Shown here: one piece after another, positions 3,718 to 37,396 of the stretch
Layout of the letters: each line of letters starts with the position of its first letter
How positions within the stretch are numbered: position 1 is the stretch's first letter
Source of the DNA: Gammaproteobacteria bacterium
GTDB lineage: Bacteria; Pseudomonadota; Gammaproteobacteria; Pseudomonadales; Azotimanducaceae
NCBI GenBank assembly: GCA_026705345.1
Contig: JAPPAV010000065.1
Span: 1 to 38,765, forward strand
Length of the DNA stretch: 38,765 nucleotides
Direction: 5' to 3'
Notes under the pieces: model-generated
Databases searched by the model: none
What the model was told of the DNA's origin: nothing
Seen by the model: only the letters and a program-made list of their open reading frames with translations
Translations under genes and position numbers: made by a program

Positions 3718-3727
3718 ACTGCGCCGC

Positions 3728-3787
3728 GTAGGGGACGGGCTTGTCCCGTCCCAGCGCGCCCTCCCGGCGCGTTAGGGTCGCCCCTAC
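3728..3787. repeat. REP-like palindromic intergenic element, copy 1 (possible bidirectional terminator)
   Basis: This 60-bp element begins GTAGGGG and ends CCCCTAC, a perfect 7-bp terminal inversion. Inside are two hairpins: GACGGG-cttgt-CCCGTC and CGCGCC-ctccc-GGCGCG. It fills the gap between the converging GMC gene and RND permease gene. Related sequence recurs near 28496 and 34966. A role in ending both transcripts is inferred from position; there is no T-tract. Confidence 0.75.
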
Positions 3788-3796
3788 GATGCGAGG

Positions 3797-27854: not shown

Positions 27855-28499
27855 ATGCACAACGGTCAATTCCCCCGCCTGCAAGGGCTCGCGACGTGCG
27901 CTATGGCCTTTGCGATTCTCGCCGCGCAAGTAGGCGGTGCCGAAGCCGCCCAATCAAACACGAAAGGCGAAAGCCAGAATGTCACGGCCTCTGCGGTCAT
28001 CAAGCGCTGCGACTCGCAGCAGCCGATCGGTCGAGCTCGACTGATCGAGCGCGCCTCCGAGGAGGGGGTCAAGGTCGTCGAAGTGGAAATCGGTATCCGC
28101 AACGGGCTAACCGAAGGCAAGCACGCCGTCCATATCCACGAGACCGGCGCCTGCGAGCCGTGTTCGGCCGCCAAGGGACACTTCGACCCCGGCCCCAACA
28201 GCAATACGAGTCCGGACGGCAATCATCCGTTTCACGCGGGCGATCTCGTGAACATCGACATCACCCACATGTCGGACAACGTGACGCAGGAAGACGGAAC
28301 CCCGTTGGGGAGCGGCAGACTTCAGACACTCACGACCCGAATCACGCTTTCCGACGGCCCGCTGTCCATCTTCGATGCGGACGGCAGCGCGTTCATCATT
28401 CACGTCGACCCGGACTCGTACTGCCCGGGCGGCGAGGAGGCAGGGTGTGCCGGCGGCGCTAGGGCCGCCTGCGGCGTGATCGTCAAGGACGCGCCGTAG
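27855..28499 (+). CDS. sodC: Cu/Zn superoxide dismutase, periplasmic (SodC-like)
   Basis: The protein has 214 residues, with a signal peptide ending near AEA (residue 31). Metal ligands are visible in order: His93 and His95 (VHIHETG), bridging His109 (GHFDP), His124, His127 and Asp130 (NHPFHAGD), and His183 (FIIHVDPD). The active-site Arg region (GGARAACGVI) and cysteines for the structural disulfide are present. It converts superoxide to peroxide and oxygen in the periplasm. An extra Cys (CEPC, 100-103) and an enlarged loop before the last ligand (CPGGEEAGC) differ from short SodC proteins. Its TAG stop lies inside a palindromic repeat. Confidence 0.93.
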   Translation: MHNGQFPRLQGLATCAMAFAILAAQVGGAEAAQSNTKGESQNVTASAVIKRCDSQQPIGRARLIERASEEGVKVVEVEIGIRNGLTEGKHAVHIHETGACEPCSAAKGHFDPGPNSNTSPDGNHPFHAGDLVNIDITHMSDNVTQEDGTPLGSGRLQTLTTRITLSDGPLSIFDADGSAFIIHVDPDSYCPGGEEAGCAGGARAACGVIVKDAP

Positions 28500-28520
28500 G
28501 GGACGGGCTCGTCCCGTCCC
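28496..28520. repeat. REP-like element, copy 2 (half element)
   Basis: GTAGGGGACGGGCTCGTCCC and following bases repeat the left half of the element at 3728-3787, including the GACGGG/CCCGTC hairpin. The right half is missing. The SOD stop codon TAG (28497-28499) is part of the repeat, which lies between the converging SOD and DUF523 genes. Confidence 0.75.
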
Positions 28521-34965: not shown

Positions 34966-35029
34966 GGGGCGACCGCGCGCCCTTCGGGCGCGTTGGGTGC
35001 GCGCCCTTCGGGCGCGTTAGGGTCGCCCC
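34966..35029. repeat. REP-like element, copy 3, with tandem 24-bp units
   Basis: GGGGCGACC (34966-34974) and GGTCGCCCC (35021-35029) are perfect inverted ends. Between them are two tandem units at 34975-34998 and 34999-35022, differing at two positions. Each forms the hairpin CGCGCCC-ttc-GGGCGCG. The right end GTTAGGGTCGCCCCTACGA is the same as at 3770-3789. Confidence 0.85.
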
Positions 35030-35064
35030 TACGAGTACCTTGGTTCATCGGTCAAGATGGAACC

Positions 35065-35709
35065 CTAGTCCCCACCGATCGACGTCCGCGTCGCCTCGAG
35101 TAGTTCGTCGAAGGGCGGCCGCGTTCGGTAGTCCTCGTGGGCGCGCTTCAACCGCACCACGCCTCCCGCGTCGACGAACAGGATGCCCGGCAGCGCAACA
35201 CCGTAGGCGCCGTGCCCCTCCTCGAATTGCTCGTTGCGAATACCCAGCGCGTTGATGGACTTCGAGCCCTTGTCCGAAAGCAACGCGTAGCCGATCTCAC
35301 GTTCCTCGCCGAATGCCGCCAGATCGTCTGCGGAGTCGTAGGTCATGATGGCAACGTTGACGCCGATGGCTTCGAAGTCGTCCTGCCAATCCCTCAGCTG
35401 AACCAGCTGAGCCTTGCAGAACGGTCACCAGACCGCACTTCGGCTGACTACCAGCACCAGCCCTTCCTCACCGGTCAAGCTGGCCAAATCGCGCACATTG
35501 CCGTCTTGATCCTCGGCAGCGAGCGTCGGGATGGTGTCGCCCACCGCCGGACCCCACCCGTCCTGATACGCGTCCGAGCCACACGCACCTGCCGATGCTT
35601 CGTCGGCGGCAAGACCGTTCGCCGAAGCCAGGAGACCAACTATCGACATTGCGGCCGCCGTCGGGCGTTCAATCCCCATGCGCATCCTCCGCGCCAAAAG
35701 TCGCGTCAT
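35065..35709 (-). CDS. Probable selenocysteine-containing exported redoxin (UPFC motif, UGA read through)
   Basis: The protein has 214 residues if UGA at 35425-35427 is read as selenocysteine (residue 95). From the ATG at 35709 (GAGGGG 7 nt upstream; ATG at 35679 behind GGAGG is an alternative) there is a signal peptide ending near NGLAA. It is followed by VGDTIPTLAAEDQDGNVRDL, a peroxiredoxin-like start, then LVLVVSRSAVW-UGA-PFCKAQLVQLRDW. The same frame continues without a break through the thioredoxin fold (AFGEEREIGYALLSDKGSKSI, YGVALPGILFVDAGGVVRL). Cys homologues read WCPFC at this point. A perfect stem with a GUU loop follows the UGA at SECIS distance. The enzyme is likely a periplasmic thiol/peroxide redox protein. 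A conventional reading would give two broken pieces. Confidence 0.82.
35393..35411 (-). promoter_or_regulatory. Bacterial SECIS-like hairpin
   Basis: On the minus strand CTCAGCTG pairs perfectly with CAGCTGAG around a GUU loop. The stem begins 13 nt after the UGA and the loop G is the 22nd base after it. Bacterial SECIS elements read by SelB have a stem just after UGA and a short apical loop containing G, about 16-37 nt from the codon. All criteria are met. Confidence 0.75.
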
Positions 35710-35774
35710 TATCCGCCCCTCGGTGCGGCCTGTCAGTACCGCACCGACAGCGCGTGGGTCGCCCCCGGACACTT

Positions 35775-36853: not shown

Positions 36854-37396
36854 TCAATCCACGTAGGGCTCGCCATCCGGAAGTTCCTCCGGCGCCAGTT
36901 CCCACGACTCGGCCGCTTCCTCCCACGCCGCCAGCTCGGACTTGAGCGCCCAATCGCCACGCCCATCGCGCCGAAACAGCAGGTAGTAGCCCCGGTCTCC
37001 CGCGCCGAAGATCTCGACACAAAGTAGCGCGTCGTCGCCCGCCACACCGACGCGGGAGAGGGATACGACGGGCATTCCGCGACGGGCGCGGATCGTCTCG
37101 GCATCCGCGTCACTGGTGTCGAGGAGAAGCCTTGCCGCGTAGCGATCGAAGTCGAGCCCGCCGGCATCGTCGGCGTTCGCCGCTCGGTACGCCGTCCACG
37201 CTGCCGGTGGCACGGCCACCTTCGTCCCGCGGCAGTCGCTGGGTCGACTCACCACAACCACCTTGCCCATCCGCTCAATGACCGAGTCCACGAGAACATC
37301 GACCACGTCCTGCTCGCGGGGCGGCGGCAGATCCTGCTGACAGGCTGCCAGGAGCACCACGAACACCCCCCAGCGATGCGACCTGCCGTACCTCAA
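36854..37396 (-). CDS. Lipoprotein of unknown function, frame continues past its UGA
   Basis: The protein has 180 residues from a TTG at 37396 that overlaps the CoA-transferase stop (TTGA). A short signal peptide leads to the lipobox VLLAAC, with Cys19 as lipid anchor. The mature protein has two further cysteines (SDCRG and ALLCVE) and patterns such as VGVAGDDALLCVEIFGAGDRGYYLLFRRD suggesting a beta-rich periplasmic domain; I recognise no family. The frame ends at UGA (36854-36856), but the next roughly 43 codons up to the neighbouring hydrolase gene remain open, look protein-like (WRVYLTSAADRPAIVERGEP) and have about 79% GC at third positions. A nonsense mutation or longer original protein is possible. 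Confidence 0.75.
   Translation of the reverse strand: MRYGRSHRWGVFVVLLAACQQDLPPPREQDVVDVLVDSVIERMGKVVVVSRPSDCRGTKVAVPPAAWTAYRAANADDAGGLDFDRYAARLLLDTSDADAETIRARRGMPVVSLSRVGVAGDDALLCVEIFGAGDRGYYLLFRRDGRGDWALKSELAAWEEAAESWELAPEELPDGEPYVD

Follow-up and report, generated by a model that had tools for sequence, protein, structure and literature searches.

The redoxin gene and its surroundings

The window, i.e. the whole stretch of DNA that was analysed (38,765 nucleotides of contig JAPPAV010000065.1 from a gammaproteobacterial genome), carries on its minus strand a gene that starts with an ATG at 35709 and ends with a TAG at 35065-35067. Its reading frame contains a single in-frame TGA. The initial annotation had located the gene correctly and left its strand unsaid. 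The features of the locus are as follows.

35065..35709, minus strand: gene most likely encoding a selenoprotein, 214 codons read through one UGA (translation with TGA as U; Pfam; AlphaFold2)
35425..35427, minus strand: UGA codon most likely read as selenocysteine (Sec), residue 95 (TGA at 117 and Cys codons at 19 of 138 homologous places)
35393..35411, minus strand: apical hairpin of a putative bacterial SECIS element (bSECIS), 8-bp stem, GUU loop at 35403-35401 (fold; pair counts; codon-shuffle null)
35379..35423, minus strand: longer stem around the apical hairpin in the window copy, 8 further pairs (minimum-energy structure)
35716..35721, minus strand: possible Shine-Dalgarno sequence GAGGGG, 6 nt before the ATG (read from the sequence)

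When TGA was translated as U, a product of 214 residues was obtained, in which Sec is residue 95 counted from the ATG and stands in the context ...SRSAVW-U-PFCKAQLVQL.... The motif is thus W-UGA-P-F-C, or WUPFC, which contains a UxxC pair. The TGA lies within a conserved domain that was recognized by two Pfam models, both of whose matches span the codon: PF00578 (AhpC-TSA) with 78.6 bits for a cut-off of 26, over residues 57-187 of a translation with one extra leading residue, and PF08534 (Redoxin) with a lower score of 50.1 bits for a cut-off of 26.6. None of the NCBIfam models exceeded its own cut-off on the window protein, the best one being NF006960 (45.9 bits vs 140). Downstream of the TGA the frame stays open for 119 codons and the rest of the AhpC-TSA domain is in place, in agreement with the earlier proposal that the frame runs on through the remainder of the fold. 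Furthermore, when the window gene was compared with 12 relatives, third codon positions accounted for the most differences both before the TGA (424/906) and after it (614/1169). As this bias persists 3' of the TGA, the downstream part is under selection as protein.

A hydrophobic stretch precedes the domain in 98 of 102 relatives, for 10 of 105 in a control made of 75-residue pieces taken after the Sec site; the latter replaced an earlier control of 21-residue pieces (0/117), which was unmatched in length. An exported redoxin cut by one UGA at 35425-35427 had been proposed at the outset. The UGA was confirmed by translation, and export is plausible in view of this N-terminal hydrophobic stretch.

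An alpha/beta hydrolase gene adjoins the redoxin gene in four loci of the same genus (L016-L019), where it is 74-91% identical to that of the window and divergently oriented as in the window. A metallo-hydrolase gene follows the redoxin gene within 200 bp in the window and is found about 4 kb further on in L016, L017 and L018 (86, 89 and 65%, respectively). No operon partner of the redoxin was suggested by the neighbourhoods in the window and in these four loci. In addition, a GC-rich palindromic repeat, GCGCGCCCTTCGGGCGCGTTAGGGTCGCCCCTACGA, partly doubled, occurs in the window at 3754-3789 and at 34975-35034, the second copy being located just downstream of the redoxin gene. Another repeat family was noticed at 3722-3752 and 28490-28520.

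The codon at the site and the downstream hairpin

The codon present at the site in homologues was read after 80 stretches of DNA at further places had been added, the 151 loci found at E <=1e-6 corresponding to 138 places. TGA was found at 117 of them, TGC at 15, TGT at four, and TGG and ACG at one each; ACG belongs to an unrelated peroxiredoxin and TGG to a decayed copy of the redoxin gene in a relative, G016 (loci L153 and L091; contig C49:36048-36572), which in addition carries a TAG and a TAA. The TGA pieces comprise 105 distinct sequences and the 19 Cys places 18. The DNA of loci L016-L019 (Pseudomonadales or Gammaproteobacteria records) is also present in four genomes from the genus of the window, so that the 138 places are not all independent. 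All 117 TGA places have a Cys three residues after the site, and in 102 of them the motif is UPFC or UPYC, with a Q-[LF]-V-x-L stretch usually coming next. The 19 Cys places (TGC or TGT) come from SAR86, other Gammaproteobacteria, Sphingomonadales and their kin, Hyphomonadaceae, Hirschia and an Acidobacteriaceae. Together with the alignment and 12 more genomes of the order (see below), they bear out the expectation that Cys homologues exist at the UGA position. Neither TAA nor TAG was found at the site among the 138 places and the homologues fetched from the order.

Folding of the RNA confirmed the perfect 8-bp stem with a GUU loop that the initial annotation had described downstream of the UGA (CUCAGCUG/CAGCUGAG, arms at 35411-35404 and 35400-35393), with 21 nt between the UGA and the loop. 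This hairpin lies within all the limits given for bSECIS elements in the Fig. 2 legend of PMC13188914, i.e. a loop of 3-9 nt with a G followed by G or U, a stem of 4-16 bp, a spacing of 16-37 nt and an energy <=-7.5. The z-score of the hairpin was -2.7 when 60 nt were considered and -4.6 for the 46 nt that follow the UGA. As evidence on its own, the stem carried less weight than had been given to it: by local hairpin energy it ranks 12th among the 215 open in-frame TGA sites of the window, and since 11 of these have stronger hairpins, it was not taken as proof.

The hairpin was therefore considered across the homologues. In the codon-shuffle null, synonymous codons were redealt among the sequences having the same amino acid, so that the proteins and the codon use at each position were kept. 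For the 105 distinct TGA sequences, an average of 6.80 of the 8 stem pairs was formed, compared with 5.93 ± 0.064 under the null (largest of 300 shuffles: 6.10), and the mean hairpin energy was -8.48 vs -5.75 ± 0.22 kcal/mol (60 shuffles). Among the Cys sequences (18 distinct), 2.78 pairs were formed vs 3.03 ± 0.10, which means that they have no hairpin.

A 7-pair stem was then analysed in 48 of the 105 sequences. In this set, 92.6% of the cells were paired, compared with 14.6-37.5% when the partner was slid; the covariation score was 0.501, vs 0.198 ± 0.021 for shuffled and at most 0.162 for slid partners, and 72 cells were changed on both sides, vs 29.0 in the shuffles. Three of the five pair measures exceeded all shuffles, and two fell within them (pairs changed on both sides, 4 vs 4.0; further pair types, 9 vs 9.7). 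Two adjacent stem pairs switch from G-C to A-U and from C-G to U-A; arms reading CAGCUG/CAGCUG and CAACUG/CAGUUG, for instance, both occur naturally. The pair closest to the loop is G-C in 16 sequences and C-G in 11, and in 21 it is not formed. Both shuffling nulls ignore the relatedness of the sequences, which makes the distances from the shuffles too large; the slid-pair control keeps it. The existence of a real RNA hairpin is thus supported by the codon-shuffle null and by the slid-pair controls. A scan of the window at the Rfam gathering thresholds gave no match. RF00031 gave none in the window's own genome, but the control was matched in no genome either, so that this search is uninformative on bacterial SECIS elements.

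It is therefore homology and covariation, and not the hairpin alone, that place this UGA site beyond chance. Since the stem is kept by paired changes beyond the codon-shuffle null and is absent from the Cys homologues, the UGA is most likely read as selenocysteine.

Selenocysteine machinery, alternative readings and distribution

The genome from which the window comes (5.07 Mb, 151 contigs, 100% complete) contains all four sel genes; according to the initial annotation, a lack of selA, selB and selC would have spoken against Sec insertion. Within 4.4 kb of contig C68 (49046-53375) were found selA (526.6 bits), selB (374.5 bits) and the tRNA-Sec gene selC (70.5 bits), the last of which was also called by ARAGORN, with anticodon UCA. 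SelD is encoded on contig C128, where it forms the C-terminal region of a fusion of 721 aa with an oxidoreductase. The selD part scored 254.3 bits for a cut-off of 125, the N-terminal part matches TIGR03169, and the whole fusion stays under the cut-off of TIGR04369, 'fusion_not_SelD' (472.4 bits vs 700). PMC2398784 describes fusions of Ndh with SelD that have a CxxC motif.

In two loci (L008:749-1351, 1500-1593 and 1617-2855; L001), selA, selB and the tRNA-Sec gene come in this order on one strand, a small ORF, nucleotidyltransferase-like by eye, separating the tRNA gene from selA-selB. A gene named by eye as integrase-like was also observed directly beside the tRNA-Sec gene on the opposite strand, as if the latter were an integration site.

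Other UGA-containing genes were looked for with a coding-score scan over 798 kb (the window, one locus with a paralogue on contig C7, and 40 stretches of the genome). Of 6200 sites, 31 were retained as candidates, with the C7 paralogue second; the TGA of the window redoxin was missed, which points to a low sensitivity. Filters on redox motifs left 20 of 6187 open TGA sites, the C7 paralogue ranking first and the window redoxin second. Seventeen of the 20 look like chance (judged by eye, three being translated further), so that no claim is made that the genome is selenoprotein-rich. The TGA at 36854-36856 of the window was also tried as a Sec codon and rejected: coding scores are high on both sides of it, but several stops lie beyond it in L017, and the alignment stops in L016 and L019.

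The C7 paralogue (L072/L166; C7:22419-22925) is 51% identical to the window redoxin and represents a second Sec redoxin of that protein family, with a WUPFC motif and the hairpin CAGUUG-GUU-CAACUG. A third selenoprotein gene of this genome, on contig C13 (L213:14816-16495, minus strand), also had its TGA among the 20 filtered sites; it belongs to the UGSC family NF041046 (133.3 bits, cut-off 125). Its UGA lies within the UGSC motif, after which the frame continues into a long second region.

Could the gene be a pseudogene, derived from a Cys redoxin by a nonsense mutation and decaying downstream of it? The decayed copy in G016 indicates that such an event does occur in a relative. For the window gene this explanation is very improbable, as the same codon, TGA, is found in most of the homologous places and in many genera, with neither of the other two stops at the site in the homologues read, the codon-position bias goes on after the TGA, and the hairpin is maintained. 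It is just as improbable that UGA stands for an ordinary amino acid such as Trp throughout the genome, or is generally read through, without Sec being involved. The frame is open whatever the sense given to the codon, and the TGG of G016 would fit Trp. However, close homologues without the TGA have a Cys, and a distant one a Ser; the genome has SelB and a tRNA-Sec with anticodon UCA; and at the TGA 36854-36856, in the one gene examined, relatives do not continue past the stop.

An explanation compatible with a selenoprotein gene is that the product is mostly the truncated 94-residue form, with Sec inserted seldom or in dependence on the selenium supply. It is favoured by the competition between Sec decoding and release factor 2. 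We consider it unlikely as a description of the main product, although less so than the two preceding explanations: the hairpin and the C-terminal half have been kept over the long term, which shows that the full-length product matters.

The preferred reading remains that the gene encodes a selenoprotein, SelB and the hairpin delivering Sec at the UGA and a full-length peroxiredoxin-fold oxidoreductase being made; we give it a probability of about 0.95. From the complete set of sel genes, the Cys counterparts and the conserved hairpin we infer, on genomic rather than chemical grounds, that this organism inserts Sec here, as had been put forward initially.

The distribution of the redoxin was examined in 200 genomes of the window's family, drawn evenly from a larger group. 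A match was found in 173 of them; among the matches listed, each contains one TGA (its position within the match not being given), except for one G016 copy (TAG and TAA), and some genomes have two or more Sec copies. SelA exceeded its cut-off in 163 genomes and gave E <=0.001 in 173, ten being only below the cut-off. A homologue at E <=1e-19 and selA at E <=0.001 occurred together in 142 genomes, the homologue only in 9, selA only in 31 and neither in 18 (Fisher p 5.8e-7); these counts were tallied by hand, with seven genomes per search obtained by elimination, and little weight is put on the test because they are confounded by completeness.

The nine genomes with a homologue and without a selA match (of 151) all have TGA at the site, and selB exceeds its cut-off in none of them. 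Six are less than 90% complete, and the others are 96% (G104 and G187) and 90% (G177) complete. As selA and selB are adjacent in the genome of the window, both could be absent because of a single missing contig; in some of the nine, selA and selB may really have been lost. In G016, which has a weak selA match (E 9e-38) and no selB over the cut-off, a distant homologue still has a TGA.

A second sample comprised 293 genomes of the order, 12 of those listed belonging to the window's family. Outside the family, TGA homologues (E <=6e-22) were present in five genomes of four other families, all five with selA and with the TGA confirmed at the site. Two weaker matches with one TGA lie outside that count, in G412 (E 5e-10, no selA; not refound at E 1e-3) and in G433 (E 1e-7). 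Among the genomes fetched from the order, Cys occupies the site in 12, of which five have selA and seven do not, and the distant homologue of G274, a genome without selA, has a Ser codon. A quick tree of 103 of the 159 distinct sequences (73 with Sec and 30 with Cys, half of the Sec sequences from the family being left out), calculated with the Sec column masked, placed the Cys sequences in three groups and needed three Sec/Cys changes. Many of its forks are weak and, since it is unrooted, gain and loss of Sec are not told apart.

Paired copies were observed as well. In G468, from another family of the order, two Sec redoxins face each other within 1.8 kb (L196:474-2191; contig C22), about 4 kb from selA (C22:174122-175483). 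In one genus (L098, L103 and L111), Sec redoxins lie side by side, one with WUPYC and one with U-G-S-C instead of U-P-Y-C.

Genes matching PF00115 (COX1) were found in 60 of 61 family genomes, including the window's, which suggests that the family respires oxygen. PF00115 also includes nitric oxide reductases. One reading, given somewhat less than even odds, is that the putatively exported Sec redoxin is the mark of a large gammaproteobacterial family that apparently respires oxygen and uses Sec as a rule, with several Sec paralogues and repeated Sec/Cys exchange at its edges.

Fold, proposed mechanism and relation to known selenoproteins

An AlphaFold2 model, built from an 18-row alignment with Cys in place of Sec, had a mean pLDDT of 81.6, residues 1-44 being below 50. 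In this model a helix starts at residue 96, directly after residue 95. The best PDB matches were peroxiredoxins, Bcp4 (3hjp, TM 0.88 by target length) coming first and AhpE being among the others. A profile search by sequence also gave BCP-type peroxiredoxins first, together with ResA and other thiol-disulfide oxidoreductases. When true peroxiredoxins of the relatives were aligned (L161, L173 and L179), their Thr/Ser fell on Sec95 and their peroxidatic Cys on Cys98. This indicates that the active site is a thioredoxin-like UxxC set in a peroxiredoxin fold. Two distant BCP-like peroxiredoxins of the family (L162 and L175; G087 C1 and G104 C3) have a UGA at the peroxidatic position itself (TPGU), so that TxxU peroxiredoxins probably occur in the window's family too.

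The following mechanism can be proposed. SelB, bound to the hairpin that lies 21 nt after the UGA 35425-35427, would deliver Sec-tRNA(Sec) to the ribosome at this codon, and read-through would yield the full-length 214-residue thiol oxidoreductase of peroxiredoxin fold, which is probably exported. Sec95, just before the first long helix and the first residue of the UxxC pair, would most likely attack a peroxide or a disulfide substrate. Cys98 would then resolve the intermediate as a selenenylsulfide, and a thioredoxin- or glutathione-type partner would reduce it. The roles of Sec95 and Cys98 are derived from thioredoxin-type chemistry, and it is by inference that location, substrate and catalytic cycle are assigned here.

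With a standard gene caller, the predicted protein would end at residue 94. Because of this, and because all NCBIfam models stay below their cut-offs, mis-annotation is probably frequent in the group. Moreover, more than 100 distinct natural SECIS elements of broadly one geometry, with hairpin-less Cys counterparts, make a good set for studying the requirements of SelB.

The gene belongs to a kind of selenoprotein that is already known, and the 'hidden' selenoprotein of the initial annotation has to be tempered to that extent. AhpC-TSA selenoproteins with UxxC are listed both in a marine survey of 2008 (PMC2398784) and in a review of 2026 (PMC13188914). Table 2 of the former gives 'Prx-like 1, pfam00578, UxxC' with 225 sequences and 'Prx-like 3, pfam08534 (e-value>0.001), UxxC' with 68; entries of the latter are 'Prx-like thiol:disulfide oxidoreductase, PF00578, UxxC, UxxU' and 'Redoxin family protein, PF08534, UxxC', and PMC9312934 has both the Prx-like PF00578 and the Redoxin PF08534 entries. 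The type proteins given for the nearest described families are WP_010940744.1 and HEU0032618.1. Among titles and the beginnings of abstracts in the open-licence literature, no paper naming this redoxin group was found; the group may still have been reported. Less expected than the kind itself are the breadth of its occurrence in the family, the multiple Sec copies, the three Sec/Cys changes and the absence of a fitting curated NCBIfam model.

The group bears on two statements of PMC13188914, according to which selenoproteins are seldom retained by aerobic bacteria and the change from Sec to Cys is rarely documented in bacteria. The first is disputed by PMC5029168, which found Sec users to be aerobic (40.4%) as well as anaerobic (35.8%). 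If true, an oxygen-respiring family with Sec use as the rule and repeated Sec/Cys exchange would be a counter-example to both views.

With peroxiredoxins proper (BCP/PrxQ and AhpE; Sec form TxxU) the window protein shares the fold. However, these have a Thr or Ser three residues before the peroxidatic Cys or Sec, where the window group has Sec or Cys. SelL-related redox proteins (NF040769) are weakly similar to it over much of the domain (E 4.3e-11), but it scores 42.7 bits for a cut-off of 120 and lacks the SelL motif, which is UxxU. The 'Redoxin family protein' of PMC13188914, compared by its description only, has the Redoxin domain and UxxC in common with the window protein, in which AhpC-TSA nevertheless scores higher. 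Compared likewise by description, the window group differs from Prx-like 1 in its mostly UPFC or UPYC motif, its Q-[LF]-V-x-L stretch, its hydrophobic leader and the absence of an NCBIfam model over cut-off, and it shares with Prx-like 1 and the Prx-like thiol:disulfide oxidoreductase the PF00578 domain, the UxxC motif, a hairpin directly after the UGA and the existence of Cys homologues.
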